From positions 1 to 46,432 of the forward strand of contig JAKSIU010000020.1 of assembly GCA_024398615.1 (NCBI GenBank): DNA of 46,432 nucleotides. Direction: 5' to 3'. Positions 5,083-25,081 of this stretch are shown here, in pieces. Position 1 is the stretch's first letter. Every line of letters starts with the position of its first letter. A program made the translations under genes and the position numbers. Under the pieces are notes generated by a model, which saw nothing but the letters and a program-made list of their open reading frames with translations, ran no database searches and had not been told where the DNA came from. Source of the DNA: Bacteroidaceae bacterium. GTDB taxonomy: Bacteria; Bacteroidota; Bacteroidia; Bacteroidales; Bacteroidaceae.

Positions 5083-5232
5083 AGCTGGGTATATATTAGT
5101 CGCGTAAAAATATGAATTTTCCTTCATTTCCATGAAGTGTTCTTGATTTGCTTATCGCAGGAGAATCAAAATATAACATACATTAAGGTACGTTCTATCT
5201 TCAACATTATCATTGTTTTGAAAGGAAAGGCT

Positions 5233-5274: not shown

Positions 5275-6159
5275 ATGTCAATATCAATTAAAGGCTTAAG
5301 CCATTATTATCCGAACGGGAAGAAAGCCCTGGACGACATCAATCTGGAGATTCCTTCAGGCATGTTCGGACTCCTGGGCCCTAACGGCGCCGGCAAGTCC
5401 ACGTTGATGCGTATTCTTGTAACCCTGCTGGAACCCAGCGAGGGGCAGATTGATGTGTGCGGTTATGACATCCGCACGCAGCGCAGTGAGGTCCGCCGCA
5501 TTCTGGGATATCTGCCGCAGGACTTCCGCTTCTTTGCCAAGTACAAGGTGCGTGAGTTTCTGGATTATGCGGCAGCACTTACCGGAATGACCAATTCCCA
5601 GGCACGCGGCAAGGCTGTCGATGCCATGCTGGAACAGGTGGGCCTGTACGAGGTACGTGACCGCTATGCACAGAATCTGTCTGGCGGTATGAAAAGACGT
5701 CTCGGCATTGCCCAGGCACTGATACACAAGCCCATGATCCTGGTGGTGGATGAGCCTACCACCGGACTCGATCCCGAGGAGCGCATCCGCTTCAGGAATC
5801 TGCTTTCCGAGGCCAGCACAAAGGATACCACAATCATACTGTCAACCCATATAGTAGGTGATATTTCCAGTTCGTGTACTGAAATGGCCATGCTCAACCA
5901 GGGCCATGTCATGTTCAGAGGGTCACCCGCAGGCATGCTCAAGGAAACCGAGGGCAAGGTCTGGCGTCTGAGGGTCACCAACGAACAGTATGCCGAGATA
6001 AATCAGAAGTATGCGGTCATCTCGACCATTCCGCACGGACTTGGCTGGGACATACAGGTGGTGGCAGACAGCCTTCCCGGATACGATGCCGTGAGCTATC
6101 CGCCCAATCTGGAGCATGCATACGTGTATTTCACTGAAATCAGGGATAAAGACAGATGA
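5275..6159 (+). CDS. ABC transporter ATP-binding protein
   Basis: This 294-residue protein is a complete cytoplasmic ABC ATPase. Visible motifs are the A-loop Tyr12, Walker A (G35-T43), the signature LSGGM (135-139), Walker B with D159 and E160, and the switch His192. The C-terminal 80 residues form a small accessory domain with a PNLEHAYVYF segment. Its gene overlaps the next one, a permease, by four bases, so it probably energises that permease. The sequence is close in style to the ATPase domain at the end of the RND fusion at 15206-19900 (both share SGMFGLLGPNGAGKST and ERIRFRNLL), suggesting a duplicated pair that could form a heterodimer. It is the first gene of the export operon. Confidence 0.95.
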   Translation: MSISIKGLSHYYPNGKKALDDINLEIPSGMFGLLGPNGAGKSTLMRILVTLLEPSEGQIDVCGYDIRTQRSEVRRILGYLPQDFRFFAKYKVREFLDYAAALTGMTNSQARGKAVDAMLEQVGLYEVRDRYAQNLSGGMKRRLGIAQALIHKPMILVVDEPTTGLDPEERIRFRNLLSEASTKDTTIILSTHIVGDISSSCTEMAMLNQGHVMFRGSPAGMLKETEGKVWRLRVTNEQYAEINQKYAVISTIPHGLGWDIQVVADSLPGYDAVSYPPNLEHAYVYFTEIRDKDR

Positions 6160-9100
6160 GACTTGGCATAAATGACATACTGACCGTCTCGAAATATGAG
6201 ACGAAACTCCTTGTCAGAGGCTGGTTCTTCAAGGTTTTTGCATTCCTGGCGCTCATAGCATCTGTCATACTCGGAGCCAGTTACATAATCCAACCCTTCC
6301 AGGACCCCCTTATGGTCAACCGCTCGGTCATCCCCTATATGTATATGCTGGTTATGAACGTGGGGCAGGCCGTGGTGTCGGTGTTCCTGGCATCGGAGTA
6401 TCTGAAGCGCGACAAACAGCTGGACACGTCAGAGGTGTTCTACACCAGGCCGCTCAGCAATGCCGAGTATCTGTTAGGCAAGATGTGGGCCACGCTGAAG
6501 GTGTTCTTCGTGCTGGATGCGGTGGTCATGGCGATAGGGCTGATAATGGGCATGATCAAGTACGGAACCAATCTGGACTACCTGAGCTGTATCTGGTATT
6601 TCCTTCTGCTGGACGTGCCTACGCTGGTGTTCATAGTGGGCCTGTCGACCACACTGATGCTCATCCTGAATAACCAGGCCATAACCATGGTCATACTGTT
6701 GGCGTACATCGGCGCCACGCTTTTCTATATTGACGATCTGTACTATTATCTGTTTGATTACATCGGCTTCAACCTGCCCATGCTCAAGTCGACAGTCACC
6801 GGTTTCAGCGGACTGGGAAGACTCATAAACCACCGCTTGTGTTATCTGCTGCTGGGCATCGGTCTGATTCTGACCGATGTGTCGCTCTTCCATCGGCTTC
6901 CCAACTCCAGGTACAGCCTGCTGCCGTGGCGCATTGCTTCGGTGCTGTTCCTGGCAGGCGGACTGTACGCCGGCTACAGGCACGTGCATTTATATAAGGT
7001 GGACGAGAAGTTCAGGACCGATATGATTCAGCTGGACAACAGTTACGTCCACACAGTAGGTGCCGTGGCTGAAACATGCAGGCTCGACGTGACCCAGAAC
7101 GGCGATTCGCTTAACGTGAAGGCCACACTGATTGTAAGGCCCGAGGCCGAAACCACTCAGTTGGTGTTCACACTCAATCCCGGATTCGCCCTGCACAGCG
7201 TCAGTTCTCCGGGTCATTCCATGCAGTACCAGCGTCTCAAGCATCTCATCGTAATGGATTTCGATGCTGCACTCGCTGAGTCAGAACCGGTGGACATTGT
7301 CATGGAGTATGGCGGAGTGGCAGATGAGCGCATCTGCTATCTGGACATATCGTCTGACAAGATGCTGGAGAATACAAAGGTGCTGAACATGCTCAATACA
7401 GGCAGGCAGTATCTGTTTCAGGACCGTGATTACACGCTTCTCACCCCCGAGAGTTACTGGTATCCGCGTCCTGGCGTTGCTTACTGCGATGCCAGCCCCG
7501 AGTGGCAGAAATCATATTTCACTGATTTCACCATCAGCGTGACGCCCAATCCGGGACTGACACCCATATCGCAGGGGGCCTGCACTGCCAGCTCCGATTC
7601 CACGGAGTACACCTTCCAGCCCGAATCCCGCCTGCCATCGGTATCGCTTGCCATAGGTGACTACATCTCCAAGTCCATTACCGTCGATTCCACTACATAC
7701 ACCGTGTGGGAACTGGGCCATTGGGACGATGGCTTCCAGGTCCTGGACTCGATAAAAGACACCATTCCACAGATGATCCGCGATGTGCGCGGGGACATGG
7801 AGTGGAACATGGACATGGCTTATCCGTTCCAACGTTTCTCGCTGGTCGAGGTACCCGCGCATTTCAAGACATTCAAAAGGGTCTGGACATCGGCTTACGA
7901 GCAGCTGCAGCCCGAAATCGCGCTGATTCATGAGAGAGCATATGACATCGAATCGTTTCAGTTTAAAGAGAGGAAGAACGCGTTCATGCGTTGGAACAGA
8001 GACAGAAGCGAAAAGGATGTCCTGATAGACATTCTGCGGGAAGCGCTCAATTTCATGGCAGGAGAGCAGAACTACAATGGCAGTGGCGGAAGGGGGCGTT
8101 TCTCGATGACTGCTGTGGATAATCCATACTACATGCGGCCTCTGTTCACAAACTTCAGGTATAATGTCTATTCGTCCGACTGGCCCATGGCCAACAGGAT
8201 GGTCGAGGCAGTGACAGGCGGAAATACGTCCGCGAACGACTGGATGAGAAGCATGAACGGCATGAGCGAAGACGAGAAGGCCCTGTTCCTGTTGGGAAAG
8301 TATGGTTTTGACCGCGTGATGTCCGATCCCGACTGGGAGGATCTGGCCGACAACGCACTGTCACTCAAGACAAGGGATTTCTTCGCTCCGGCATCGGCAG
8401 CTGTGGGCTACGAGGCACTTATTGACTCCATTAACGCCCACACCAGGGAACGCGCGTTTGCAAACATATCGTTCGATTCCATTCTGAGTTGGGTTGAGGA
8501 CTATTCGGGAATTGATCTGCAGGCCAGAAAGGAAGAGTGGAACGGACGGGCGCTGCTGGCCTGCTATAAGATAGGCTCTCCCACCATAACCAAGGTAATC
8601 ACCGATACGACCGATGTGTATCAGGCTGAAATCGCAGTAGAGAACATATCGGGCAACCCGGGATATGTGACCGTTCAGTACGAGTTTTGGAACATGGAGA
8701 ATGCCGGTGATGAGGACAAACCCAAGACTTTCATGGTGGGCATAGAGGCGCATGAGACCCGGAAACTTGTGACTCACTGGCTGAATACGCCCAATCGCAT
8801 ACGGATCAACACCATGATGTCGTCCAACCTGCCGCACGATATGGTACTGGACGGCTCCGACTGGAATACATATGACGGAGAAGTCCTAACCCCAGAGGGA
8901 GTCTATGCCGTTCGCACAGGGGTGCTCAATACCGAGCCTGGCGAGATAGTCGTGGACAATGAGGATGCCGCCTTGTTCTCCCTGTCGAGGCCCATCAGGA
9001 CGGGATATCTGTCCAAATGGCTGGACAAGGCCAGGGAAAAGGAAAACGAGTTTGTCTATCAGGGCTTCCAGGACTGGAACACCTATCCCCAGTGGATTCC

Positions 9101-9506
9101 GGTTACCGATCAGGAACTGTACGGCGATTACGTCCGCTCGGCTTACGTGATATCGCAGGGCGATGGCTCGCAGTTTGCACGCTGGAGCATTCCCCTGACG
9201 GATGCCGGCACGTACGATGTATACTACTATGCCACTCCCAGGATGTACAACAACAACCGTAATCGCAGGTGGAACAACAATAACAACAATAATAATAATG
9301 GTCGACGCCAGACCAATGACTACAACTTCGAGATAGCCCAGTATGAAACGGTGGACCGCGTATCAATGAACATGAACCGTGCCGATGAGGGCTGGAACCT
9401 GCTGGGAACCTTCCGCTTCGAGGCCGACACCGTCAGGGTCACCTTGAACAACAAGTCCGGCATCAGTGTGATAGTGGCCGATGCCGTGAAAATGGTTAAA
9501 AGATAA
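6156..9506 (+). CDS. ABC-2 permease fused to large extracytoplasmic and golvesin-like domains
   Basis: This 1116-residue protein starts with an ABC-2 type permease (about residues 1-285, roughly six to eight membrane helices). A soluble region of about 540 residues follows. Its layout recalls the Bacteroidetes proteins annotated as ABC permease/M1 family aminopeptidase, but I find no HEXXH zinc motif, so peptidase activity is unlikely. Residues from about 965 to 1116 resemble the golvesin/xanthan-lyase C-terminal carbohydrate-binding domain (GWNLLGTFRF and a final VIVADAVKMV). A poly-Asn run interrupts this domain. The gene overlaps the ATPase gene by four bases. Inference: it is the membrane partner of the ATPase and reaches into the periplasm towards the RND/TolC parts of the same operon. 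Confidence 0.8.
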   Translation: MRLGINDILTVSKYETKLLVRGWFFKVFAFLALIASVILGASYIIQPFQDPLMVNRSVIPYMYMLVMNVGQAVVSVFLASEYLKRDKQLDTSEVFYTRPLSNAEYLLGKMWATLKVFFVLDAVVMAIGLIMGMIKYGTNLDYLSCIWYFLLLDVPTLVFIVGLSTTLMLILNNQAITMVILLAYIGATLFYIDDLYYYLFDYIGFNLPMLKSTVTGFSGLGRLINHRLCYLLLGIGLILTDVSLFHRLPNSRYSLLPWRIASVLFLAGGLYAGYRHVHLYKVDEKFRTDMIQLDNSYVHTVGAVAETCRLDVTQNGDSLNVKATLIVRPEAETTQLVFTLNPGFALHSVSSPGHSMQYQRLKHLIVMDFDAALAESEPVDIVMEYGGVADERICYLDISSDKMLENTKVLNMLNTGRQYLFQDRDYTLLTPESYWYPRPGVAYCDASPEWQKSYFTDFTISVTPNPGLTPISQGACTASSDSTEYTFQPESRLPSVSLAIGDYISKSITVDSTTYTVWELGHWDDGFQVLDSIKDTIPQMIRDVRGDMEWNMDMAYPFQRFSLVEVPAHFKTFKRVWTSAYEQLQPEIALIHERAYDIESFQFKERKNAFMRWNRDRSEKDVLIDILREALNFMAGEQNYNGSGGRGRFSMTAVDNPYYMRPLFTNFRYNVYSSDWPMANRMVEAVTGGNTSANDWMRSMNGMSEDEKALFLLGKYGFDRVMSDPDWEDLADNALSLKTRDFFAPASAAVGYEALIDSINAHTRERAFANISFDSILSWVEDYSGIDLQARKEEWNGRALLACYKIGSPTITKVITDTTDVYQAEIAVENISGNPGYVTVQYEFWNMENAGDEDKPKTFMVGIEAHETRKLVTHWLNTPNRIRINTMMSSNLPHDMVLDGSDWNTYDGEVLTPEGVYAVRTGVLNTEPGEIVVDNEDAALFSLSRPIRTGYLSKWLDKAREKENEFVYQGFQDWNTYPQWIPVTDQELYGDYVRSAYVISQGDGSQFARWSIPLTDAGTYDVYYYATPRMYNNNRNRRWNNNNNNNNNGRRQTNDYNFEIAQYETVDRVSMNMNRADEGWNLLGTFRFEADTVRVTLNNKSGISVIVADAVKMVKR
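9247..9300 (+). repeat. AAC/AAT trinucleotide tract encoding poly-Asn
   Basis: The sequence contains runs of AAC and AAT codons giving an Asn/Arg-rich loop, including nine consecutive Asn residues. Gain or loss of units would keep the reading frame, so it would change linker length rather than switch the gene off. It lies inside the golvesin-like domain of the permease fusion. Confidence 0.8.
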
Positions 9507-9528: not shown

Positions 9529-11031
9529 ATGACAAAGAAACCTCTGCTTATCACTGCACTGATTGCACTGGCACCGCTCTTCGGGAACGGGGCGCGGGCG
9601 CAGATCATCATGACCATGGAACAGGCTCTCCAGTACAGTGCCGAGCATAACCCCGACCTGATAAACTCCCGCATGAGCATGGAGCGTTACGAGCAGAACC
9701 TGATAGCGCAGCGTGCATCGCTCAAGTCCCGCTTCTCACTGAACCTGGAGCCCGTCTCTTTCTCGCAGTCGCGTCAGTTCGACAGCCGTTACTCGGACTG
9801 GTACACCAACCGCTCGCTCTCTTCGTCGGGAACGTTCACCATCACCCAGCCAATCATCTGGACCGATGCCACTCTCTCGCTCAACAACAGCCTGTCATGG
9901 CAGGACAACGAGTCTACGATAGGCGGTTCCACCAATAAGAACCGGGCATTCAGCAACCGGTTGAACCTGAGTCTGAACCAGCCCATCTTCACCTACAACA
10001 AGACCAAGATGAACATGCGGCAGATTGAGATGAACTACGAGAATGCCCGCATCAGCTATGCTCTGCAGATGTTGAACGTGGAGCGCAACATCACCAACCA
10101 GTTCTACAGCCTTTTCATGTCGCAGCAGAACCTGGAGATAAGCGAGTCCGAGCTTGAGAATGCCGAGAAGAACTTCCGAATAATAAAGGACAAGGTCGAT
10201 GCTGACATGGCCACAAAGGACGAGTACTATCAGGCTGAACTGAACCTGGCCCAGTCGCGCTCAAGCCTTGAAAACCAGCGCGTGAGTCTGGAGAATGCCA
10301 AGGACAATTTCAAGCAGTCGCTGGGCATTCCCCTGGACGAAGACATCAGGGTGGTATGCGAGATTGCGGCCGAGCCGGTACTGGTCGATTTCGACAAGGC
10401 CCTGCAGAGCGCCATGTCCAGCCGTCTGGAACTCCGCCAGCGCGAGATTTCCCGCGAACAGCAGGAAATGTCCATGATCCAGGTCAAGGACAACGACAGT
10501 TTCAACGGCAACATATCGCTATCGCTGGGTATCATGGGTGACGATCCGGAATTCCCGCATGTCTACGACAGTCCCACCAACAACCCGCGTGTGGCCATCT
10601 CGTTCAGCGTGCCTATCTTTGACTGGGGTACCCGAAAGGCCCGTATCAGGGCTGCCGAGATTGAACGCGAAATGTTCGAATTGAGTGCCGAGGAGGAACT
10701 GAAGAGCATCGAGATGGATCTGCGCAGCACTTGCCGCAGCCTGGATAACCTGCTGAACCAGATATCCATAGCCGAGCAGAGCCGCCAGAACGCCCAGCTG
10801 ACCTACGACCTCAACGAGGAGCGTTACCGCAACGGCGAGCTGACCGGTCTGCAGATGAATCAGATCCAGAGCCAGCTGTCCAGCAGCAAGGCATCGTACA
10901 CCCAGGCCTTGATCAACTACAAGATCCAGCTTCTCAACATCAAGATCCTGACACTCTATGATTTCGAGAAGGACGAACCTGTGGTCCCCATGACCTACGA
11001 GCAGAAAACAGATAAGAAACAAAAGAAATGA
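9529..11031 (+). CDS. TolC-family outer membrane efflux channel
   Basis: This 500-residue protein has a signal peptide ending near GARAQ and then two TolC-like repeats rich in long coiled-coil helices. Typical features are MTMEQALQYSAEHNPDL near the start, the SLxNQRVSLENAKDNFKQSLG helix in the middle and the second-half NLLNQ..IAEQSRQNAQLTYD helix. TolC proteins trimerise to form a channel across the outer membrane and periplasm for RND or ABC exporters. It starts 22 bases after the permease gene, and its stop overlaps the upstream end of the adaptor reading frame. Its place inside the operon suggests one outer membrane exit duct shared by the RND and ABC parts. Confidence 0.92.
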   Translation: MTKKPLLITALIALAPLFGNGARAQIIMTMEQALQYSAEHNPDLINSRMSMERYEQNLIAQRASLKSRFSLNLEPVSFSQSRQFDSRYSDWYTNRSLSSSGTFTITQPIIWTDATLSLNNSLSWQDNESTIGGSTNKNRAFSNRLNLSLNQPIFTYNKTKMNMRQIEMNYENARISYALQMLNVERNITNQFYSLFMSQQNLEISESELENAEKNFRIIKDKVDADMATKDEYYQAELNLAQSRSSLENQRVSLENAKDNFKQSLGIPLDEDIRVVCEIAAEPVLVDFDKALQSAMSSRLELRQREISREQQEMSMIQVKDNDSFNGNISLSLGIMGDDPEFPHVYDSPTNNPRVAISFSVPIFDWGTRKARIRAAEIEREMFELSAEEELKSIEMDLRSTCRSLDNLLNQISIAEQSRQNAQLTYDLNEERYRNGELTGLQMNQIQSQLSSSKASYTQALINYKIQLLNIKILTLYDFEKDEPVVPMTYEQKTDKKQKK

Positions 11032-11039
11032 TACAGCAT

Positions 11040-12098
11040 ATGAAATCAGGAATCAGCGCACTTTCACTGACTGTGCTTACGCTCATCATTGCAGGGTGCA
11101 AGCAGGAGAATACAATGAGCCGTAACGAGATACCTACACCGGTATCGGTCTCCGACATCACCTACGGCACTGTCAGCAGGATCTTCACCACCAACAGCAC
11201 CGCCGTATCCAGTTCGGAGGCCCAGCTGACGACCGAAATGGCCGGCAAGTACATCCTTCAGAAGAACCCCTCGACGGGTCAGCCCTACAAGCTGGGTGAC
11301 AGGGTACGCAAGGGCGCATTGATAGTGCGCATCGAAGACAAGTCGTATGAGAACGGCATATCCATCGAGACCAAGCGTCTGAACCTGGAGCTGGCCGAAC
11401 AGGAGCAGGTCAAGACCAAGTCGCTCTACGAAAAGGGCGGAGCCACCCTTACCGAGGTCAAGAACTCCGATATCAAGATCATGAACTCGCGTCTGGAGTA
11501 CGAGAATGCCGAGATGAACCTTGAGAAGATGAACATCAGGGCTCCGTTCGACGGCGTTATAGTGGACCTGCCGCATTATTCCAGAGAGGCCAAGGTCAGC
11601 AGCGGTGCGGCCATAGCCACCATCATGGACTACAGCTCCATGCTGCTCGAGATCAACCTGCCGGAGAGCGCCATCAACGAGGTTGTCGTGGGCCAGAATG
11701 CTTACATCACCCACTATACGCTTCCTAAGGACACCATCATGGGGCAGGTTACCGAACTTTCGCCTGCCATAAGTACCGAGACACGTACGTTCAAAGGTAA
11801 GGTGCTGGTCGACAACAGCAAGCTGCTCATCCGTCCGGGTATGTTCGTGAAGGCTGACATCATCACGGAAAGTCACGATCAGACCATCGTCATCCCCAAG
11901 AACATTGTCCGCAACGAGAACCGTCGCCGCCTGGTCTTCGTGGTTGATCAGGGCATAGCACGTGCCCGTTACATCCAGCTGGGCCTCGAAGAGAAGAACA
12001 ATGTGGAGGTGCTGAGCGGTCTGGAGGAAGACGATCAGCTGATTGTCCGCGGTTTCGAGACACTGAGAGACGGCTCGAAAGTCAAAGTTCAAAGATAA
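11040..12098 (+). CDS. RND efflux periplasmic adaptor (membrane-fusion lipoprotein)
   Basis: This 352-residue protein is an HlyD/AcrA-type adaptor. I prefer the ATG at 11040, which gives a lipoprotein signal with a cysteine at residue 20 (IIAGC); the ATG at 11028 would overlap the tolC stop as ATGA. Domains in order are a lipoyl-like half (GDRVRKGALIVRIEDKSY), an alpha-helical hairpin with the SLYEKGGATLTEVKN turn, the second lipoyl half (NIRAPFDGVIVDL), a beta-barrel and a membrane-proximal domain. Adaptors of this type join inner-membrane pumps to the TolC channel. It lies between tolC and the first RND pump gene. Confidence 0.92.
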   Translation: MKSGISALSLTVLTLIIAGCKQENTMSRNEIPTPVSVSDITYGTVSRIFTTNSTAVSSSEAQLTTEMAGKYILQKNPSTGQPYKLGDRVRKGALIVRIEDKSYENGISIETKRLNLELAEQEQVKTKSLYEKGGATLTEVKNSDIKIMNSRLEYENAEMNLEKMNIRAPFDGVIVDLPHYSREAKVSSGAAIATIMDYSSMLLEINLPESAINEVVVGQNAYITHYTLPKDTIMGQVTELSPAISTETRTFKGKVLVDNSKLLIRPGMFVKADIITESHDQTIVIPKNIVRNENRRRLVFVVDQGIARARYIQLGLEEKNNVEVLSGLEEDDQLIVRGFETLRDGSKVKVQR

Positions 12099-12116: not shown

Positions 12117-15100
12117 ATGAAGAAACTGGTCAGTTGGGCAGTCGGGCATCCGGTTACCGTCACCATGGCGGTGCTGGCCATACTGCTGCTCGGAAAGATA
12201 TCGTATGACAGGCTGAGTGTGGAGCTGCTCCCCAGCATGAACAGTCCCCGCCTGTTTGTCGAAATAGACGCCGGCGAACGTCCGCCCGAGGAAATCGAGA
12301 AACAGTTCGTCAGCAACATGGAGTCGCAGATTGCCCGTCAGAGCGACGTGACTTCGGTGTCGTCAGTCGTCAAGGTCGGTACGGCCCGCATCACGGTCGA
12401 GTATGCATGGCGCAAGGATATGGACGAGGCGTACCTGGACCTGGAGAAAGCCATGAGCAGCTTTGCCCAGGACGACCGCGTAACTGACCTGCGCATTTCC
12501 CAGAAGGATCCCACCACGGCTCCCATCATGATCCTGGGCTTCTCCAACCCGGACATCACTGACATGGCCGAGCTGCGCAAGGTGGCCGATTCGTACGTGT
12601 GCAACGAACTGATGAGGGTCGATGGCATAGCCGATGTGTCACTTGCCGGTGACGAGTTCACGAACCTGGTCATCGAGGCCGATCCTTACAAGCTTGAGGC
12701 CTTCAACATTACCATAGACAACATCTCGTCACGCATCCAGGAGAGCAACCAGAGGGTGACCGGCGGCAGGATCACAGAGCAGGGCGCACAGTATCTTGTA
12801 ACCGGCTCCAATACCCTGACCGATGAGACCGCCTTCGGCAACATCATTGTCGGATACCGCAACACCGAGGCCGAGGCCGGTCAGGTCAGCGAGTTCCAGT
12901 CTGCCAGCATGGCTCCCATCTACCTGCGTGATGTCGCTGCAATCCATTTCGAGAACCGTGAGCCGGAAAACATCGTCAGAGTGAACGGCAAGCGCAGCAT
13001 CGGCATTTCGGTGTTCAAGGAAATGGACTACAATACAGTGAAGGCGGTGGAAGGCATCCGGAACAGCATAGACAAGATATGCAAGTCGTTGCCCGGATAT
13101 GAAATCAGGGTAATCAGCGACCAGGCCACCTTTATCAATAACTCGATAGGCGAGGTCAAGAACAGTGCCCTTCTGGGTATCCTGCTGGCTGTGGTCGTAT
13201 TGTTCGTGTTCCTGCGCAGGGTAGGGACTACGCTCATTGTGGCTGTGTCCATCCCCGTGTCCATAATCGCCACGTTCAGCCTGATGTACTTCGGCGGACT
13301 GACCGTCAACATACTGACCTTGGGAGGACTTGCCCTGGGTGCGGGCATGCTGGTGGACAATTCGATCGTAGTCATAGAGAGCATATTCCGCAATCAGGAA
13401 CGGGGACTTTCCGTCCGCGATGCGGCGGTTACCGGCACGTCCGAGGTGGCCGGTGCCGTTACGGCATCGACCCTGACTACCATAGTGGTGTTCCTGCCCA
13501 TAGTCTATCTGCACGGCGCCACGGGCGAGCTGTTCAAGGACGAGGCCTGGACTGTCACGTTCTCGCTTATCTCGTCGCTCTTCGTGGCCATACTGGTCAT
13601 TCCAACGCTTTACGAACGCTTGTTCGGACGTAAGAAGGCTGTTCCCATGACGAATGTCAACTCGTTGAATATCAAGGGTTACGGCTTATTCCTGAAGAAA
13701 CTTGTCCAGAAACGCTGGCTGGTCATTGCCTGCTCGCTCGTGCTTGTGGTGGGCACGTTGTTCCTGCTGCCGTTCATCGGTACCGAGTTCATGCCCAAGG
13801 CTGATGACAACACCGTCAACGTGAAGGTTCGCCTGGCCGAAGGTACCAGCCTGGAGCGTACATCGTCCACGTTGGAGAGCCTTGAGAACCTGGTCTTCGA
13901 CATGACCGAGGATACAGCCTGCGTCATCTACACGCACATCGGTCCCGGTGCATCGTCACAGAACATGGATTTCCAGGGTGAGAACACTGCCACGATGAAG
14001 ATCCAGCTGTCCAAGGCATCGCTCCTGACACCGGATCTCCTTACCGAAGTACTGGCCGATTACACCAATGGAGTGGAGGGTATGGAACTGTCATTCACTC
14101 AGGATGACAATTCGCTGAATTCGATGATGGGCACCCAGGATGCTCCTCTTGTGGTCGAGATCAAGGGCGAGGACCTGGATATGCTGTCAGTGCTTACCGG
14201 GAATGTCCTCTCTGCAGTCGATTCCATTGACTGCCTGTACAATATAGAAAGTTCGCTGGCAGGTGGCGCTCCGGAGATCATCATCACCGTGGACCGTGCC
14301 CTGGCCGGAATGAACAATATCAATGTATCGACCGTCATAACGCAGATACAGCAGCATCTGGCAGGACGTGAAGCCGGACAGATGGAGTACAAGGGTGACA
14401 TGAGGGACATCAGTATCAAGGTGCCCGGCGTGTCGCTTGCCGAACTGAGCAATCTGGTCATCACATCGGGCCAGAAGGATTTCCGGCTGATCGAGCTGGC
14501 TCAGATAACGGAGAGTACGGCCCCCAAGGAGGTTCATCGCATCAACCAGAACCGCGTGACGCGCGTTACAGCCGACATTGACGGTTCCGTGTCGCTGGAC
14601 AAGGCTGCCCAGCTTACGCGTGAGGCTGTGTCGGGCATCGAACTGCCTCAGAACTACTCCATAAACGTGACCGGCGAGGAGGAACGCAGGGCAGAATCGA
14701 TGAACAGCCTGCTGCTGGCACTCGTGTTGTCCATCATACTGGTCTATATGGTCATGGCATCGCAGTTTGAATCGCTCCTGCATCCTTTCACAATCCTGCT
14801 TACCATTCCGCTGGCATTGGTCGGATCCGTACTGCTGTTCCTCATAACGGGAACCACGGTGAACATTATGGGTGTCATAGGTATGGTGATGCTGACAGGT
14901 ATCGCAGTCAACAGCTCCATCATCCTGGTGGACCGCATAGGACAGCTCCGTGAATCGGGCCTGAGCATGATTGACGCCATTGCCGAGGCGGGTCAGCAGC
15001 GTATCCGACCCATCCTGATGACCAGTCTCACCACCATCCTGGCCCTTGTGCCGATGGCTCTGGGAATAGGAGAGGGGGCATCGCTCAGTTCACCCATGGC

Positions 15101-15209
15101 TGTGGCCGTGATAGGTGGTCTGACTACATCGACACTGCTCAGTCTTATAGTCATACCCTGTGTCTATTATGTGTTTGAGAGCGCCAAAATAAGAATAACA
15201 GGGAAATGA
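12117..15209 (+). CDS. RND efflux permease, HAE1/AcrB family
   Basis: This 1030-residue protein is a full-length RND pump with the expected twelve membrane helices and two large periplasmic loops. TM4 carries GMLVDNSIVV, with D414 in the position of the proton-relay aspartates; the neighbouring position is N415 where AcrB has a second Asp, a change seen in many HAE-type pumps. The last helices (GIAVNSSIILVDRI, RPILMTSLTTILALVPMAL) are also typical. The gene starts 18 bases after the adaptor gene and overlaps the next RND gene by four bases (ATGA). Two different RND genes in tandem suggest a heteromeric pump, as in MdtBC; that comparison is inference. Confidence 0.93.
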   Translation: MKKLVSWAVGHPVTVTMAVLAILLLGKISYDRLSVELLPSMNSPRLFVEIDAGERPPEEIEKQFVSNMESQIARQSDVTSVSSVVKVGTARITVEYAWRKDMDEAYLDLEKAMSSFAQDDRVTDLRISQKDPTTAPIMILGFSNPDITDMAELRKVADSYVCNELMRVDGIADVSLAGDEFTNLVIEADPYKLEAFNITIDNISSRIQESNQRVTGGRITEQGAQYLVTGSNTLTDETAFGNIIVGYRNTEAEAGQVSEFQSASMAPIYLRDVAAIHFENREPENIVRVNGKRSIGISVFKEMDYNTVKAVEGIRNSIDKICKSLPGYEIRVISDQATFINNSIGEVKNSALLGILLAVVVLFVFLRRVGTTLIVAVSIPVSIIATFSLMYFGGLTVNILTLGGLALGAGMLVDNSIVVIESIFRNQERGLSVRDAAVTGTSEVAGAVTASTLTTIVVFLPIVYLHGATGELFKDEAWTVTFSLISSLFVAILVIPTLYERLFGRKKAVPMTNVNSLNIKGYGLFLKKLVQKRWLVIACSLVLVVGTLFLLPFIGTEFMPKADDNTVNVKVRLAEGTSLERTSSTLESLENLVFDMTEDTACVIYTHIGPGASSQNMDFQGENTATMKIQLSKASLLTPDLLTEVLADYTNGVEGMELSFTQDDNSLNSMMGTQDAPLVVEIKGEDLDMLSVLTGNVLSAVDSIDCLYNIESSLAGGAPEIIITVDRALAGMNNINVSTVITQIQQHLAGREAGQMEYKGDMRDISIKVPGVSLAELSNLVITSGQKDFRLIELAQITESTAPKEVHRINQNRVTRVTADIDGSVSLDKAAQLTREAVSGIELPQNYSINVTGEEERRAESMNSLLLALVLSIILVYMVMASQFESLLHPFTILLTIPLALVGSVLLFLITGTTVNIMGVIGMVMLTGIAVNSSIILVDRIGQLRESGLSMIDAIAEAGQQRIRPILMTSLTTILALVPMALGIGEGASLSSPMAVAVIGGLTTSTLLSLIVIPCVYYVFESAKIRITGK

Positions 15210-18200
15210 AGTCATTTGTCGACCGCAGGGTAACTATCTGCATGCTTCTGGTGGCCACGTCGCTCATGGGCTACTTCTCGTACAAGCAGCTGTCTGTTGA
15301 ACTGCTGCCCAATACGGAACTGCCCCAGCTCTACATCAGCTGTTCGGCCCAGAGTGACCTGACTCCTTCATACATGGAGCAGCAGGTGATCATTCCCCTG
15401 GAGGGTGCCGTCAGCGCTGTGGGCGGCGTGGAGAACATGGAAACGACCGTGTCGGGCCGTCAGGGCACCATTACGGTCGATTTCAAGCGTGGAACCAACC
15501 TGAAACTCACCACGGTAAAACTGCAGCAGAAGATCAGTTCCATCCGTTCGGACTTCCCGACAGGAGTCAACGTGAATGTCCAGCAGGCCAACATCGGTGG
15601 CATGGGCAACCAGTTCATCTCGCTTCAGGTGCGCGGAACTGGCGGCGTGGACCGCCTCAGGGCCATCGTGGACAAGGATGTGGTGCCCCGTCTCCTGAGC
15701 ATTGACGGAATAGCTGACGTGACGGTCTACGGCGGTCGTGTCAAGTCCATCGAGATCCGTTCCAATCCGGAGGCCATGCAGGCCCTGAACATATCGAATT
15801 CGCAGATCAGTCAGGCACTGAACCAGTACAACCAGGAGCGTACGTTCCTGGGTTTCATCAGCGAGTCGGACCGTAAGTACTACGTGCAGCTCGATGCCAA
15901 CTACGATGATGTGTCGCAGGTGGAGAATCTTGTCGTTGCGCCCGGTCCCATCTATCTTAAGAATGTTGCGACGGTGTTCTTCGACTACAAGGACGAGACC
16001 ACCATAAGCAGGGTTAACGGCATGGACGCCATTTCGGTATCGATGGTAAATGTGCAAGGCGAGAACATACTGGAACTGTCCAAGAGATGCCTGAAACGCA
16101 TAGACGAGGTGAACCGCGAAGTGGCCCCGCAGGACCTGCAGCTGGTTGTGCAGTCCAATTCGGCCGACCAGATCAGCAATAACATGTCGCAGATAGTACG
16201 TCTGGCGCTGCTGGGCGGCATGCTGGCCATCTTCGTGCTCTGGTTCTTCCTGCGCAACATCAGGCTGGTGTGCCTCATTGCACTGTCCATCCCCGTGTCG
16301 GTCCTGTCGGCATTCAACGTCTTCTATGCTGCAGACATATCCATCAATACGCTTACGCTCTTAGGTATAGCGTTGGCAATAGGCATGCTGCTGGACAGCA
16401 GTATAGTCGTGCTGGAGAACATCTACCGCCTGGCCTCCATGGGAATGCCCCCGCGGCTTGCGGCTCTTCAGGGTGTCAGGGAGGTGCGCAAGGCCCTCAT
16501 TGCATCGACGCTCACCACGATAACGGTGTTCCTGCCGTTCGTGTTCTCCAATGAGCCTATGATCAAGCTGCTTGGCCAGAATATCGGCTTCTCCATCATA
16601 TCTACGCTGCTTTTCTCGCTTCTTGTAGCCGTCACGTTCATCCCGATGGCAACAGCCGCCATGATGGAACGCAGCAGTGGACGTGGCAATACTCCGTTCA
16701 GCAAGATGGCCATACACGACCGGCCGCTGCAGATTTACTCTACGCTGCTCAAGACCTGCCTCAGGAAGCCCGGTCCGACCATCGGCACCGCAATCGCCGT
16801 ACTGGTCATTGCATTCATAGTGGCTCTCTCGCGCAATACCGGTCAGAACCGTCAGGTTGACAGCGACCGGGTCAATGTCAGCATAACCATGCCCACCGGC
16901 AGCACCATCGATAATACAGATGAGGCTACGGCTACGTTGGAGGCGCGTCTGGACAGTTTCCCGCAAAAGAAGGATGTAATAAGCCGCATTCAGGAAGATC
17001 AGGCTTCCATCACCGTCACCCTTCAGGATGACTACAGCAAGAAGGGAGGTCCGACCATAAGCCAGATTGTGGAGCAGCTGGGCGATCAGCTCAAGCTGGA
17101 CGAAGACATCGATGTGCGCGTCACCCCGGGCTATGGCGGAGGACAGCAGAATGCAAGCGGACTGAACAGGCTGACGCGCTTCATGAGCGTGCTTGGTGTG
17201 GGTGACAATTCTGAGCGTATTGTGGTCAAGGGTTCCGATACCGAGACCATGCGTATCGTGGCCAACGAACTGAGATACAATCTGGAACAGATGGAGTTCG
17301 TGCGTGATGTCCGCGTGGACAACCCCGGTGGCCGCCGCGAGGTCCAGCTGACCTTCGATCCCGTGTCACTGGCATCGTACGGCATCACGCCACAGAACAT
17401 TTCCTCGGCCCTTAACGCCCTGAACCGCTCTACCAGTACAGGTGCCAGCTTCAAGGTCGGTACCGATGAGTATGACATTGTCATCATGGACGATCTGACC
17501 GAAGAGGAGGAAGAGGCCGGCCGCTGGGAGAAAACGATGGATGACCTGCGCCGCGTCACCATAACCGACCAGAACGGCGGAGTGCATGAACTGCAGCAGC
17601 TGGCCAGCATACGTCTGAGCCGTGGACCTTCCGAGGTCCGCCGCGTGAACCGTGACCGCCGCATCAACGTCACCTACGGCATATCGCAGAGCGAGGAACT
17701 GCCCAAGGATGTGCTGGACGGATATCATGACCAGATCGATGACCTGATAGCCAATTACAACCTGCCTTCGGGACTGGCCCTGGAAGCACAGCGGGGCGAT
17801 GACTCGACTGGCGAGTTCAAGTTCCTGATCCTGGCATCGATATTGTTGATATTCATGATATTGGCGGCATCGTTCGAGTCGCTGACCACACCTGTTGTGC
17901 TGCTGTTTTCCATACCTCTGGCAGCCATAGGATCGCTGCTGGCACTGCTCCTGTCGGGCAACAGCCTGTTGACGGCCAATACCCTGACCGGATTCCTGAT
18001 CCTGCTGGGCGTGGTGGTCAACAACGGCATCATCCTGATAGACTACTCGACCACTCTGCGCAAGCGTGGCTACGGCCGCATGAGAGCCATCATGACCAGC
18101 GGCCACTCGCGTCTCAGACCTATCTGCATAACGACAATAACAACTATTGTCACGCTTATCCCGATGGCGATGGGCGACAGCGAATATGCCGGTGCCATAG

Positions 18201-19900
18201 GTGCTCCCTTTGCGCTGACCGTCATAGGCGGCCTTACGTTCTCGGCCATCCTGACGCTGCTGCTCATACCTACGCTCTACATCTCGTTCGAGAACATGCG
18301 CGCATGGTACAAGGGTCTGGGCCGCTACACGCATATCCTGCATGCCGTTATCTTAGGTGTGGGCCTGCTGGTGATCCTGACAAGCATGAGCGGAATCTTC
18401 CGTATCCTGCTCTCAATCATCGTGCTGCTGGTTGCCATTCCGGGAGTGACATATTTCATCAAGAGCTCCGTGAGGATTGCACGCGAGGACATCGTTGCTC
18501 CGGACCAGCCTATCGAGATTGAGGTACGCAACCTTGTCAAGGTATATGACTGGCCAGGACTGTTCCTGCGTCAGTGGAGGAGCGGCCTCAACATACGCCG
18601 CAGGCTTGGACTGGCACGCACTTACCATCATGCAAAGGACTTCGTGGGTCTTCTGTGGCAGGTCGTGGTATTCGGATTCACGGGTTATCTGGCCGGCTGG
18701 TATTTCGAGAAGAACTTCTGGATACTGCTCATGGCAATCATCACGCTGGCTGGTGTCAAAAACATACTTAAAGCCGTTACCGAGTACATTGGCTACAAGT
18801 GCGGCAATCCCGCTACTGCGCAGAAGATCAGACGGATACTCTTCTGGGTCCTGCCTGCTCTGACCATGTTCTTCCTGAGCAGACGCCTTGAAAGCAAGGG
18901 ATTCATGGTGTTCATAGCAGTGGTCTGGGTGCTGGGACTCTTCATCCGCCGCACATCGGATTATCTCTATGAGAACGATATCAACGTGGAGCGTCTGAAG
19001 GGACAGAAGGCCGGTCTGAAGCGGACCTGGTTCGTGTTCGTCAAGAGCATTCCAGTCATTGGCAAGCAGAAGAAGCCGTTCAGGGCCCTGCGTGGCGTAT
19101 CGTTCCAGATTCATAGCGGCATGTTCGGCCTGCTGGGCCCCAACGGAGCCGGCAAGTCCACGTTCATGCGCATTGTCACAGGCATCCTGCGCCAGAGTTA
19201 TGGCACGGTGTTCATCAACGGAATGGACACGCTCAAATACCGCGAGGAGCTGCAGAGCCTTATAGGGTTCCTGCCTCAGGAATTCGGTATGTACGAGGCT
19301 ATGACAGCGTGGGATTTCCTCGATTATCAGGCCATCCTTAAGGGAGTGACCGATGAGAAGGTCCGTCGCGAAAGGCTTGAGTATGTGCTTTCTGCTGTTC
19401 ATATGTACGAGCAGAGGAACTCCGCCATCGGATCCTTCTCGGGCGGTATGAAGCAGCGTATCGGAATCGCCATGATCCTGCTCAACCTGCCGCGCATACT
19501 TGTCGTCGATGAGCCTACTGCCGGTCTGGATCCCCGTGAGCGCATACGCTTCCGCAACCTGCTGGTCGAACTGAGCCGTGAGCGCATCGTCATATTCTCG
19601 ACCCACATCATTGAGGATATCGCCAGCTCGTGCAACCAGGTCGTGGTCATCGAGAAGGGTACACTCAAGTACTTCGGTGAACCCGGCGACATGGTTCATC
19701 TGGCCAAGGACAAGGTATGGCTGTTTGACATCGAGGCATCGCGTCTGGGCGAACTGGACGAGAAGCTTATAGCCAACCATATTCAGGATGGCGACATGAT
19801 CAGGGTGCGCTACATATCGCCCACATGTCCCGTTCCCGGAGCCGAGCCGGCCGAGCCCAACCTGGAGGATGCTTACCTCTGCCTGTTGAAGAATCTTTAA
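15206..19900 (+). CDS. RND efflux permease fused to a C-terminal ABC ATPase domain
   Basis: This 1564-residue single reading frame combines two transporter classes. Residues 1 to about 1035 form a complete RND pump (TM4 GMLLDSSIVV, D397; last RND helix near TLLLIPTLYISF). Two extra membrane helices follow (about 1041-1087). From I1103 an ABC ATPase begins (IEIEVRNLVKVY, A-loop Y1114). It is interrupted at once by about 175 residues with four predicted membrane helices, and resumes at about A1294 (ALRGVSFQ). The rest is intact: Walker A G1311-T1319, signature FSGGM 1411-1415, Walker B D1435/E1436 and switch H1467. The even number of added helices keeps the ATPase in the cytoplasm. It overlaps the preceding RND gene by four bases and precedes a small ABC permease. 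I do not know a characterised protein of this design. Confidence 0.92.
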   Translation: MKSFVDRRVTICMLLVATSLMGYFSYKQLSVELLPNTELPQLYISCSAQSDLTPSYMEQQVIIPLEGAVSAVGGVENMETTVSGRQGTITVDFKRGTNLKLTTVKLQQKISSIRSDFPTGVNVNVQQANIGGMGNQFISLQVRGTGGVDRLRAIVDKDVVPRLLSIDGIADVTVYGGRVKSIEIRSNPEAMQALNISNSQISQALNQYNQERTFLGFISESDRKYYVQLDANYDDVSQVENLVVAPGPIYLKNVATVFFDYKDETTISRVNGMDAISVSMVNVQGENILELSKRCLKRIDEVNREVAPQDLQLVVQSNSADQISNNMSQIVRLALLGGMLAIFVLWFFLRNIRLVCLIALSIPVSVLSAFNVFYAADISINTLTLLGIALAIGMLLDSSIVVLENIYRLASMGMPPRLAALQGVREVRKALIASTLTTITVFLPFVFSNEPMIKLLGQNIGFSIISTLLFSLLVAVTFIPMATAAMMERSSGRGNTPFSKMAIHDRPLQIYSTLLKTCLRKPGPTIGTAIAVLVIAFIVALSRNTGQNRQVDSDRVNVSITMPTGSTIDNTDEATATLEARLDSFPQKKDVISRIQEDQASITVTLQDDYSKKGGPTISQIVEQLGDQLKLDEDIDVRVTPGYGGGQQNASGLNRLTRFMSVLGVGDNSERIVVKGSDTETMRIVANELRYNLEQMEFVRDVRVDNPGGRREVQLTFDPVSLASYGITPQNISSALNALNRSTSTGASFKVGTDEYDIVIMDDLTEEEEEAGRWEKTMDDLRRVTITDQNGGVHELQQLASIRLSRGPSEVRRVNRDRRINVTYGISQSEELPKDVLDGYHDQIDDLIANYNLPSGLALEAQRGDDSTGEFKFLILASILLIFMILAASFESLTTPVVLLFSIPLAAIGSLLALLLSGNSLLTANTLTGFLILLGVVVNNGIILIDYSTTLRKRGYGRMRAIMTSGHSRLRPICITTITTIVTLIPMAMGDSEYAGAIGAPFALTVIGGLTFSAILTLLLIPTLYISFENMRAWYKGLGRYTHILHAVILGVGLLVILTSMSGIFRILLSIIVLLVAIPGVTYFIKSSVRIAREDIVAPDQPIEIEVRNLVKVYDWPGLFLRQWRSGLNIRRRLGLARTYHHAKDFVGLLWQVVVFGFTGYLAGWYFEKNFWILLMAIITLAGVKNILKAVTEYIGYKCGNPATAQKIRRILFWVLPALTMFFLSRRLESKGFMVFIAVVWVLGLFIRRTSDYLYENDINVERLKGQKAGLKRTWFVFVKSIPVIGKQKKPFRALRGVSFQIHSGMFGLLGPNGAGKSTFMRIVTGILRQSYGTVFINGMDTLKYREELQSLIGFLPQEFGMYEAMTAWDFLDYQAILKGVTDEKVRRERLEYVLSAVHMYEQRNSAIGSFSGGMKQRIGIAMILLNLPRILVVDEPTAGLDPRERIRFRNLLVELSRERIVIFSTHIIEDIASSCNQVVVIEKGTLKYFGEPGDMVHLAKDKVWLFDIEASRLGELDEKLIANHIQDGDMIRVRYISPTCPVPGAEPAEPNLEDAYLCLLKNL

Positions 19901-19913
19901 ATGAAGTAGAGCA

Positions 19914-20627
19914 ATGTCAGTCATACAGAATTTGAAAGCCTATGCCAAGGTATGCGGCTACAATATGAGGATAATATTTGCAGGCAAGTTCATCTGGTTC
20001 CTGCTGCTGGGCCTGGCCCTGTTCTTCTTCCTCATGTTCACGGCGGCATCCAAGGGCACGGCGCTCAGCCACAGCATGGTATATGACCAGCTTATCATAC
20101 CGGGACTGCTGCTTGTGTTCTATCCTGCCTGTTTCGGCATTCAGAACGATGCGGACAACCGCATATTGGAACTGCTTTTCAGCATACCCAACTATATCTA
20201 TAAAGTATGGCTGTTCAGGCTGTTCATGATCTATGTGGAGGTCTTCCTGATTCTGGTGGTATATGCCTTTCTGGCCAGAATACTCTTGTACCCGGTGTCA
20301 CCGTTCCTGATGGCGGCTCAGCTCATGATTCCCGTAATGCTGTTCGGCAACCTGGCCTTCATGTACTCCACGCTCATCCGTAACGGTAATGCCGCCGCGG
20401 TGCTGTCAGTGCTAACGGTCATACTGGCGCTCATCCTGTCCAACATGCCATTCGTCCAGAACAAGGTCTGGGACGTGACCATCAACCCATACGAGGAGCC
20501 GGAGAACATCAATGCGGCCATCTGGAGCGTCATTCTGCTCAAAAACCGCATAGCCATGATTGTGGCCGCTATCGTATTCCTTATGTCGGGCCTCCTTGGC
20601 CTGCAGAACCGCGGCAAGTTCCTCTGA
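19914..20627 (+). CDS. ABC-2 type permease subunit
   Basis: This 237-residue membrane protein has about six hydrophobic helices and the layout of a small ABC-2 permease, including the amphipathic start, a long second cytoplasmic loop with FGIQNDADNRILELLFSIP, and a final LLGLQNRGKFL. It has no ATPase of its own. It starts 13 bases after the RND-ABC fusion gene, so its likely ATPase partners are the fused domain or the ATPase at 5275. It closes the seven-gene operon. No clear terminator is seen in the 51 bases between its stop and the convergent nitroreductase gene. Confidence 0.8.
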   Translation: MSVIQNLKAYAKVCGYNMRIIFAGKFIWFLLLGLALFFFLMFTAASKGTALSHSMVYDQLIIPGLLLVFYPACFGIQNDADNRILELLFSIPNYIYKVWLFRLFMIYVEVFLILVVYAFLARILLYPVSPFLMAAQLMIPVMLFGNLAFMYSTLIRNGNAAAVLSVLTVILALILSNMPFVQNKVWDVTINPYEEPENINAAIWSVILLKNRIAMIVAAIVFLMSGLLGLQNRGKFL

Positions 20628-20678: not shown

Positions 20679-21377
20679 TCATTCGGCCCATTCGAAGTTG
20701 TCCGTCCCGGCTCCAATCTCGAAATGCAGTTTGGCTATGCCCAGGTCCATGCGGGTGTAGCCAATCAGGGATGAGCCTTTCTTTGCCAGAACTTTCTCCT
20801 TGTCGCTTTTTTTGTCAAATCCCAGATACTCGAAACGGAACTTCTGCTGGTTGACGGCAGTGGGGGCGAGCAGGGCGGCCTTTACGCCTTCGTTGAACCA
20901 TTGTGGAGTGATTTCGCTGGCGTTGCTTACATCGGCCGGCGACTTGATTTTATGGGACACTCCTTGTGTCTCTCCAAATCCGATGGATATGTAGCAGGCA
21001 ATCTTTTCGTCCTCTTCCAGGACGTATGTTCCGGGAATCTTACTGTAGCTTACACCTACCCAGCAGGTGTTGAGCCCCAAAGTCTGTGCCAGGAGCACAA
21101 TCTGTTCCCCATAGTATCCGACCCTCTCGTCCAGGTCATCGGCCTTCTTTCCTGCCATGACAAGATAGTTCCTCACACCTCTGAACCTGCCGTACTTTGC
21201 CATAGGACAAAGGAAGGACTTGGGCTCGTCAAGTATGAACTGTACATGGAGATTTCCGTCCCTGTTGACTTCCTCAATCTTCCGTTCCAATGCCTCCAGC
21301 GTGCTGCCGGTGATAGGTTGGTCTGTATATGCCCTGACAGAATGACGGGCTGTTATTGCTTCCTGTAATGTCATCAT
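20679..21377 (-). CDS. Nitroreductase family protein
   Basis: This 232-residue protein belongs to the FMN-dependent nitroreductase fold, seen in the start ITARHSVRAYTDQPI, the middle YYGEQIVLLAQTLGLNTCWVG and the end segment LAPTAVNQQKF. These enzymes use NAD(P)H to reduce nitro compounds, quinones or flavins in the cytoplasm; the natural substrate is not evident. It fits the two-subdomain TM-nitroreductase type common in anaerobes. On the minus strand a CAAATATA box (21417-21424, reading TATATTTG) could be its promoter. It is divergent from the GH2 gene and convergent with the export operon. Confidence 0.85.
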   Translation of the reverse strand: MMTLQEAITARHSVRAYTDQPITGSTLEALERKIEEVNRDGNLHVQFILDEPKSFLCPMAKYGRFRGVRNYLVMAGKKADDLDERVGYYGEQIVLLAQTLGLNTCWVGVSYSKIPGTYVLEEDEKIACYISIGFGETQGVSHKIKSPADVSNASEITPQWFNEGVKAALLAPTAVNQQKFRFEYLGFDKKSDKEKVLAKKGSSLIGYTRMDLGIAKLHFEIGAGTDNFEWAE

Positions 21378-24117: not shown

Positions 24118-24124
24118 TCCATAT

Positions 24125-25081
24125 ATGAAACTGAAATTACTGACTGCCATTACAGTATCGGCTTTGGTTGCAGGGAACTGCGCCATGGCTCAGACCGAGG
24201 AGTTTGACAATCCTGTGATAAGAAGCTGTTACACGGCCGATCCGTCGGCCCATGTGTTCGGAGACACTCTCTATATCTATCCCAGTCACGATGAGGACAA
24301 TGCATTCACGTTCAGCATGAAGGACTACCATGTATTCACGACAACCGATATGGAGACTTTTCAGGACCGTGGAGTCATTTTCAAACCTTTCGAGCAGACC
24401 ACATGGGCCAGACAGGGCGCATGGGCGCCTGACTGCGTTTACAGAAACGGCAAGTACTATCTGTATTATCCCACGGACCAGAAACATATAGGTGTGGCGG
24501 TGAGCGATTCGCCAACCGGACCGTTCACAGACCCGCTGGGATATCCGCTTCTCAGCATTGATTCGCCCGGAGTTGTCTGCGACCGTGATTTCATTGACCC
24601 CTGCGTGTTCATTGACGATGACGGTCAGGCCTACATGTTTGTGGGGCAGAACACTCTGTGCTGCATCAGGTTGAACGAGGATATGATTTCATATGACGGA
24701 CAGGTGCATATCATTCAGGGACTTGTGGAATTCTTCGAGGCTGCATGGTGCCATAAGTACAACGGCAAGTATTATCTGTCATATTCCAACAGCTCGCTGA
24801 CCGGACATCAGCCTGAGATTGTCTATGCCATGGCCGATAATCCTCTGGGACCTTACGAATACAAGGGCGTAATTCTTGATCCGGTGAACAGCGGTACCAA
24901 TCATCACAGCATAGTCCGGTTCAAGGACAAATGGTACATGTTCTATCACAACGCCGACCTGAGCATATCGCGCAGGCAGCCGTTTACCGGTGTGCGCCGT
25001 TCAGTCTGTGTTGACCGTCTGTACTACAATCCTGACGGTACAATCAGAAAGGTGATACAGACGCATAAGAAGAACGATTGA
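24125..25081 (+). CDS. GH43 family glycosidase (arabinofuranosidase/xylosidase type)
   Basis: This 318-residue protein starts at the ATG at 24125, which gives a signal peptide ending in CAMAQ; an upstream in-frame ATG at 24098 overlaps the GH2 stop and lacks a signal. It is a single five-bladed propeller with the GH43 catalytic triad in order: base D39 (TADPSAH), pKa modulator D158 (DPCVFIDDDGQAYMFVG) and acid E205 (FFEAAW). GH43 enzymes release alpha-L-arabinose or beta-D-xylose from arabinoxylan, arabinan or xylo-oligosaccharides. It forms a two-gene unit with GH2. No lipobox is present, so it is probably periplasmic. Confidence 0.92.
   Translation: MKLKLLTAITVSALVAGNCAMAQTEEFDNPVIRSCYTADPSAHVFGDTLYIYPSHDEDNAFTFSMKDYHVFTTTDMETFQDRGVIFKPFEQTTWARQGAWAPDCVYRNGKYYLYYPTDQKHIGVAVSDSPTGPFTDPLGYPLLSIDSPGVVCDRDFIDPCVFIDDDGQAYMFVGQNTLCCIRLNEDMISYDGQVHIIQGLVEFFEAAWCHKYNGKYYLSYSNSSLTGHQPEIVYAMADNPLGPYEYKGVILDPVNSGTNHHSIVRFKDKWYMFYHNADLSISRRQPFTGVRRSVCVDRLYYNPDGTIRKVIQTHKKND

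Follow-up and report, generated by a model that had tools for sequence, protein, structure and literature searches.

Textbooks separate pumps of the resistance-nodulation-division (RND) family, which draw on an ion gradient, from ATP-binding cassette (ABC) pumps, which draw on ATP, and the RND pump MdtBC has no ATPase. As given in one paper (PMC8277102), MdtBC is a known heterotrimer and MacB has its nucleotide-binding domain (NBD) fused to its own permease, and a paper on an iron stimulon presents MMPL/ABC operons of other make-up (PMC10434189). Here we describe a gene in which an RND permease and an ABC ATPase form one polypeptide (RND2-ABC, hereafter the fusion), found in a stretch of 46,432 nucleotides (the window) from a Bacteroidaceae bacterium, contig JAKSIU010000020.1 of assembly GCA_024398615.1. 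The full-text literature searched, with most subscription papers and all preprints outside its scope, gave no description of an RND-ABC fusion protein or operon, in line with the sequence-only reading of the window, to which no characterised protein of this design was known. A protein that is both RND and ABC makes it testable whether one transport path can use both energy sources.

The fused frame and its interrupted ATPase domain

A single open frame at 15206-19900 on the forward strand, 1564 codons plus stop, encodes the fusion, and its start overlaps the stop of the preceding RND gene (RND1) by 4 bases. The Pfam model ACR_tran gives a full-length match to residues 2-1028 (profile 3-1020 of 1021; 554 bits vs a cut-off of 28), and ABC_tran matches residues 1295-1439 over profile positions 1-137 of 137 (92.5 bits). 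The best solved relative of the RND half is MdtB. In the ATPase (NBD2) we located Walker A (GPNGAGKST, 1311-1319), the Q-loop (1356-1361), the signature (FSGGM, 1411-1415), D1435/E1436 with the Walker B Glu and the D-loop within 1435-1442, and the switch His (H1467), and this full motif set is kept in alignments of 37 and 13 rows. The sequence-only reading had proposed one 1564-codon frame with a full RND permease and then an ATPase with intact Walker A, signature, Walker B and switch His; both Pfam families indeed fall in the one frame and every residue it named matches. Its order of domains stands as far as the fusion is concerned and fails as a plain C-terminal addition of the ATPase, as the first ATPase strand precedes a membrane insert. 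The parts of the frame are as follows.

15206..18289, forward strand: RND domain, residues 1-1028 (ACR_tran)
18290..18511, forward strand: linker with two predicted membrane helices, residues 1029-1102 (hydropathy and structure model)
18512..18550, forward strand: first strand of the ATPase with an A-loop-like Tyr (EIEVRNLVKVYD), residues 1103-1115 (strand motif model; the structure alignments begin here)
18551..19075, forward strand: membrane insert within the ATPase domain, residues 1116-1290, four predicted helices (structure model)
19076..19705, forward strand: remaining ATPase domain, residues 1291-1500, with Walker A, Q-loop, signature, Walker B and switch His (ABC_tran, motif positions)
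19706..19897, forward strand: C-terminal tail, residues 1501-1564, with a conserved LEDAYL motif at its end (alignments)

The NBD of the fusion is thus, by prediction, interrupted by membrane helices inserted in its own fold, the first strand (1103-1115) being set apart from the remainder (1291 on) by a predicted four-helix insert. In the structure model of the C-terminal part the insert helices lie at 116-138, 143-172, 175-200 and 204-229 (model numbering), and the two linker helices, placed by hydropathy at 1047-1065 and 1067-1085, lie at 13-33 and 37-62, i.e. at residues 1040-1060 and 1064-1089. A motif model of the strand, made from 47 training entries of which some are blank, finds the strand 182-220 residues ahead of the Walker A block in 17/17 fused proteins, with scores above all 340 shuffled controls in 16 of them, and 49 of the 50 listed structure alignments of the C-terminal model begin at model residue 73-78 and omit the insert. 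By both the strand motif and the structure alignments, the fusion does not have the continuous ABC ATPase domain of some 220 residues. We know of no precedent for an ATPase domain nested in this way, its first strand parted from the remainder by membrane helices, and a single phrase search of the literature for such a domain returned nothing relevant.

Distribution, selection and split forms

Comparison of the homologous sequences supports the join as genuine, constant in its order of parts and subject to purifying selection. The support that the sequence-only reading had asked for, many homologues sharing this junction, was found in the genus, the order, named genomes, Latescibacterota and the KSB1 group. 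Within the genus, the whole protein has a match at E <= 1e-100 in 19 of 24 other genomes; 18 of these carry it as a single frame over its full length, and in the remaining one it is truncated by the start of a contig. The order was searched with the C-terminal 529 residues including the junction (threshold 1e-60, 393 genomes): 77 genomes match, 25 as separate ABC ATPases only and 52 (own genome included) with the junction region. Frames of 1515-1640 codons hold 44 of the 52 junction matches, and the other eight reach a contig end (five by coordinates, three by length of the locus); these classes were assigned from match coordinates, and the RND identity of the frame remainder was checked directly in the subset of loci that was read. 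Two separate genes as the rule in the order could be rejected, as 44/44 frames clear of contig ends are fused, and G038 was rejected as a case of RND alone, its frame stopping at a contig end.

Outside the order the fusion is rare within the same phylum, with 6/395 genomes in the phylum sample, four of them new (the rest are the own genome and one already counted), and 3/295 in the class sample, a count that again includes the own genome and one already counted. A scan of named genomes with two Walker-A-region patterns only, from which 80 loci were kept, gave at least 12 fusion loci (L072-L083), which is a lower bound. Eleven of them (L072-L082) have a single frame of 1568-1600 codons each and come from Bacteroidaceae, Parabacteroides massiliensis, Proteiniphilum, Rikenellaceae, Prolixibacter bellariivorans, Draconibacterium mangrovi, Prolixibacteraceae, Carboxylicivirga and other Bacteroidales, and L083, whose frame is cut at both contig ends, is from a Latescibacterota genome, in the phylum of which 2/16 genomes carry the fusion. 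In the phylum of the KSB1 genome (the KSB1 group) 40/82 genomes match at 1e-75, 31 with frames of at least 1500 codons, RND homology being checked on the loci fetched from that group. The nine shorter frames end at contig ends in G1112, G1114 and G1073 and, by coordinates, in G1113 and G1131, hold N runs in G1128, and are split in G1133 and G1152, with G1148 as the ninth. Five further genomes, chosen for a stand-alone ATPase that groups in the tree with that of the window (NBD1, below), all hold the fusion, with RND and ATPase in one frame in four and as pieces on two contigs in G1069. A plasmid search with the C-terminal query gave four records with single ABC ATPases, none of which covers 80% of the query. 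Against six relatives of the same genus, dN/dS (Nei-Gojobori) of the window is 0.03-0.06 in the ATPase part, 0.07-0.09 in the RND part and 0.11-0.24 in linker and insert, values to be read with synonymous sites near saturation.

The sequence-only reading had named two grounds for refuting it, homologues that are always two separate genes or a stop in the join, and neither applies, but in two genomes of the KSB1 group the RND and ATPase parts are adjacent genes. In G1133 (L240, 5490-5740) the first frame runs to about residue 1097 and the second begins near residue 1100 (numbering of the window protein), just before the first ATPase strand; the roughly 210 bases between them contain a repeat present at 26 places in that genome, this gap included. 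In G1152 (L241, 7060-7230) the break falls within the membrane insert, from about 1126 to about 1201, and its gap gave no match to the repeat of the G1133 gap. Gene order with the downstream permease gene PERM2 is kept in both. As read at these loci, the split genes show that the covalent joint can be lost; the link is therefore not universal, and the tether would not be strictly needed. The two could serve as ready-made natural controls for the purpose of the joint. In G010 (L032 and contig C144), a fusion gene cut by a contig start is accompanied by a second copy that matches residues 93-819 and 869-1258 in two different frames, which could reflect either a damaged duplicate or faulty assembly.

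The operon and its probable ABC partners

The fusion is the sixth of seven genes on one strand, with intergenic gaps of -4, 22, -4, 18, -4 and 13 bases, in the following order.

5275..6159, forward strand: NBD1, stand-alone ABC ATPase, 294 aa (ABC_tran, 112 bits)
6156..9506, forward strand: PERM1, 1116 aa, with six hydrophobic segments (27-246) followed by a large domain and, at the end, Golvesin_C (hhalign, Pfam, hydropathy)
9529..11031, forward strand: TolC-type outer membrane factor, 500 aa (OEP, 168.6 bits)
11028..12098, forward strand: periplasmic adaptor (membrane fusion protein), 356 aa (RND_mfp TIGR01730, 176 bits, over cut-off)
12117..15209, forward strand: RND1, permease without ATPase, 1030 aa (ACR_tran, 694.6 bits)
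15206..19900, forward strand: RND2-ABC fusion, 1564 aa (ACR_tran and ABC_tran, motif positions)
19914..20627, forward strand: PERM2, permease of 237 aa, six hydrophobic segments, predicted ABC-exporter (type V) fold

This order is found end to end in L037, L040, L167, L169, L246 and L248. NBD1 lies 13.0-14.2 kb upstream on the same strand in 37 of the 52 order genomes with the junction, whereas in the other 15 it is found on a different contig or has no hit at 1e-60; PERM2 is directly downstream of the fusion in 27/28 fetched loci, and the Latescibacterota genome G806 has the NBD1, PERM1, TolC and adaptor genes together on one contig. With the coordinates of four permeases, two ATPases, adaptor and TolC now named, the complex is open to purification or deletion.

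The active-site motif sets of both ATPases are present, and NBD1 and the fused ATPase are 42% identical over 1293-1559. The nearest NCBIfam models of NBD1 are drrA and GldA, below cut-off; in the case of GldA (TIGR03522) the cut-off is 402.6, and the fusion reaches 171 bits and NBD1 195.9 bits. NBD2 as a recent copy of NBD1 was not supported, as the fused NBDs form a clade of their own in the tree, which joins two unrelated rows weakly and with a long-branch warning. The membrane part of PERM1 compares with GldF at 41.9 by hhalign (the best of 40 block-shuffled decoys scores 22.1), and its Golvesin_C domain is over the cut-off with 34.7 bits. The large non-membrane domain of PERM1 has no Pfam match; a degenerate stretch of aminopeptidase N (pepN 1.4e-8, below cut-off) was seen solely in L170, the relative from Latescibacterota. 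PERM2, the gene adjoining the fusion, has by prediction the fold of an ABC-exporter permease of type V (ABC-2), its listed structural matches being NosY, ABCG, ABCA, ABCH, Pdr5, PmtCD and a mycobacterial efflux pump, a list that supports no claim that a family is absent. It is likely from the predicted fold that the fused ATPase has its own channel partner in PERM2, and since the adjoining gene encodes such a permease, the simplest role of the fused ATPase would be to drive it. The proposal of the sequence-only reading that a single molecule may draw on both energy sources is not supported in that form.

Flanking genes vary between loci, and in 13 downstream and 9 upstream flanks, viewed by eye without a family scan, no conserved regulator or biosynthetic neighbour that would name the substrate was seen. 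In the window the operon is flanked by a GH95-type glycoside hydrolase (2635-5133, reverse strand) and a TM1586-type nitroreductase (20679-21377, reverse strand), both by Pfam, and by genes at 21469-24117 and 24098-25081 (forward strand) that have a GH2- and GH43-type look by eye only. These neighbours are not conserved at other loci, as far as read.

The RND pair, the proposed exporter and its relatives

RND1 and the RND half of the fusion (RND2) each form one clade and are sisters in a quick tree (values of 100, 100 and 95; 11 RND1 and 12 RND2 rows plus 33 others). In AcrB, residues D407, D408 and K940 make up the proton relay (PMC8277102). The first transmembrane Asp (D407) is kept in 18/18 RND2 and 16/16 RND1 loci and the Arg of transmembrane helix 11 (TM11) is kept as well, the second Asp (D408) is replaced in 18/18 RND2 and 15/16 RND1, and the Lys (K940) is replaced in 18/18 RND2 and 16/16 RND1 loci, by Asn throughout except for Ser in one RND1 (the RND1 row of L168 was left out of this comparison). 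Neither RND thus has the AcrB-type relay of Asp-Asp in TM4 and Lys in TM10, and because the second Asp and the Lys are absent in 18/18 loci, use of the proton gradient by the RND half cannot be assumed. The Lys is present in all three (3/3) of the further full-length RNDs of this genome that were compared. Among the best-scoring RNDs from 30 genomes of the order, 22/30 have Lys, 2 have Arg, 1 (L200) has Asn and 5 are of the metal type. As metal-type RNDs also are without the Lys, the relay marks AcrB-like proton coupling and not family membership.

L200 (G038 contig 165), a separate RND that is not part of the fusion, has Asp-Asn in TM4 together with Asn in TM10, and no ABC gene was matched on its 9.3-kb contig. 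L209 (G1073 contig 95), an RND of the KSB1 group that branches next to RND1 and RND2, has the same residues at both places, its surroundings being read to 1.5 kb. Because these two share it, the relay change belongs to a broader RND lineage and appears to predate the fusion, and for that reason a replacement of the proton gradient by ATP is not shown; relay loss as proof of an ATP-driven RND was rejected on the same separate RNDs. Some RNDs of the order are fused C-terminally to a TolC-type OEP (L176, 1441-6018, forward strand; L190, 268-4611, reverse strand; L193, 1396-5820, forward strand), one of the AcrB type and two of the metal type.

We consider it somewhat on the probable side that the fusion is the hub of a conserved seven-gene exporter, in which an ABC transporter and a tripartite RND pump are linked and cargo is handed across the whole envelope. 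Its subunit pairing, stoichiometry, direction and hand-over we infer as follows. NBD1 with PERM1 and the fused NBD2 with PERM2 would form one heteromeric ABC exporter of two ATPases and two permeases, which would use ATP to move or flip the substrate out of the cytoplasm or the inner leaflet. On the adaptor and TolC, the RND part of the fusion would assemble with RND1 into a mixed trimer, which would collect the substrate at the outer leaflet or in the periplasm and expel it across the outer membrane. Through the covalent joint and six added membrane helices, which flank the ATPase domain or lie within it, the ATPase could be kept next to the RND trimer, and therefore, as we propose, each engine would deliver to the other. 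The fusion would fix the ratio of the two systems, and in a trimer with RND1 and RND2 at 2:1 there would be precisely one tethered NBD2, in keeping with a single ABC heterodimer. In this way the fusion could show how an inner-membrane ABC exporter passes cargo to an RND-TolC channel. A stronger form, a two-engine exporter in one covalently linked complex, in which ATP hydrolysis by NBD1 and NBD2 on PERM1 and PERM2 is mechanically coupled to an RND trimer whose proton relay has been remodelled or lost, is possible but rather doubtful. The ABC step would then load, and perhaps drive, the RND step, with the ATPase domain threaded through the membrane transmitting the stroke. If true, envelope transport would include a new class of energy coupling, with carriers among the genomes of three or more phyla.

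Several observations weigh against the hub exporter. The two-gene form occurs in G1133 and G1152. Five of the 24 same-genus genomes have no match to the fusion at E <= 1e-100 and about 87% of the sampled order is without it, so the fusion system is not a core function. The C-terminal model is middling (pLDDT 77.7, pTM 0.58), and NBD1 and NBD2, whose pairing we put forward above, are not nearest relatives in the tree. PERM2 was not detected in one of the 28 loci (L245), and its profile comparisons with GldF (18.9; decoy maximum 22.8) and PERM1 (22.0; decoy maximum 28.7) are not significant; as these scores fall below the decoy maxima, the ABC identity of PERM2 rests on the predicted fold.

The ATPase could instead control the opening or assembly of the RND-adaptor-TolC channel without powering transport, in the way that FtsEX and GldA-type ATPases act on partners and not on cargo. 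We regard this as unlikely, as PERM2 (by its listed structural matches) and PERM1 resemble exporter permeases and not FtsX, an argument that is softened by NosY, which serves an enzyme-maturation system. It is quite unlikely that the fused ATPase drives the RND cycle in place of the proton gradient, leaving PERM1 and PERM2 as scaffolds or vestiges: the replaced relay Lys and second Asp (15/16 RND1, 18/18 RND2) and the Lys of the 3/3 same-genome and 22/30 order RNDs would fit such a drive, but the first Asp and the TM11 Arg are kept, L200 and L209 have the same change outside the fusion, and the ATPase has an adjoining permease gene of its own in PERM2. The separate genes in the same order in the two KSB1-group genomes would be expected if the ABC and RND systems acted independently on related substrates and the fusion only equalised their expression. 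However, the fusion forms one clade that is kept in genomes of at least two further phyla, all 44 order frames clear of contig ends are fused and the junction helices and insert are under purifying selection, which makes such loose neighbours very improbable. Finally, the window is from a draft genome (72 contigs, 81.7% complete), from which an assembly artefact or a chance read-through between two genes might arise; we rejected this, its probability being negligible, as the same single frame is found in 18 other genomes of the genus, in L072-L082, in 44 order genomes (own included) and in 31 of the KSB1 group.

Every part belongs to a known family; no counterpart is known to us for the way they are combined, for the covalent joint or for the interruption of the ATPase domain. 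The MdtABC-TolC and HAE-type pumps have, as here, an adaptor, tandem RND permeases and TolC, and MdtB provides the best solved relative; in contrast, the relay Asp-Asp and Lys of MdtBC are present in the alignment, and the operon of the fusion adds an ABC ATPase on the RND, two ABC permeases and a second ATPase. The NosFY and GldAFG-type ABC-2 (type V) exporters are alike in that the predicted PERM2 fold is near that of NosY, the membrane part of PERM1 is related to GldF and the ATPases of the operon score with the GldA and DrrA models, whereas the ATPase here is fused to an RND and interrupted by helices, PERM1 has a large extra domain and the scores are below the GldA cut-off. ArsB is an ion-driven carrier that an ATPase partner can also drive (ArsAB), although from separate genes of unrelated families. 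The RND-TolC (OEP) fusions of Bacteroidales (L176, L190, L193) also have an extra C-terminal partner domain in one chain, but there the added partner is the outer membrane factor and there is no ATPase. In MacAB-TolC, too, an ABC transporter works with an adaptor and TolC. MacB, however, has no RND subunit, whereas in the operon of the window both transporter classes are joined with one adaptor and TolC.

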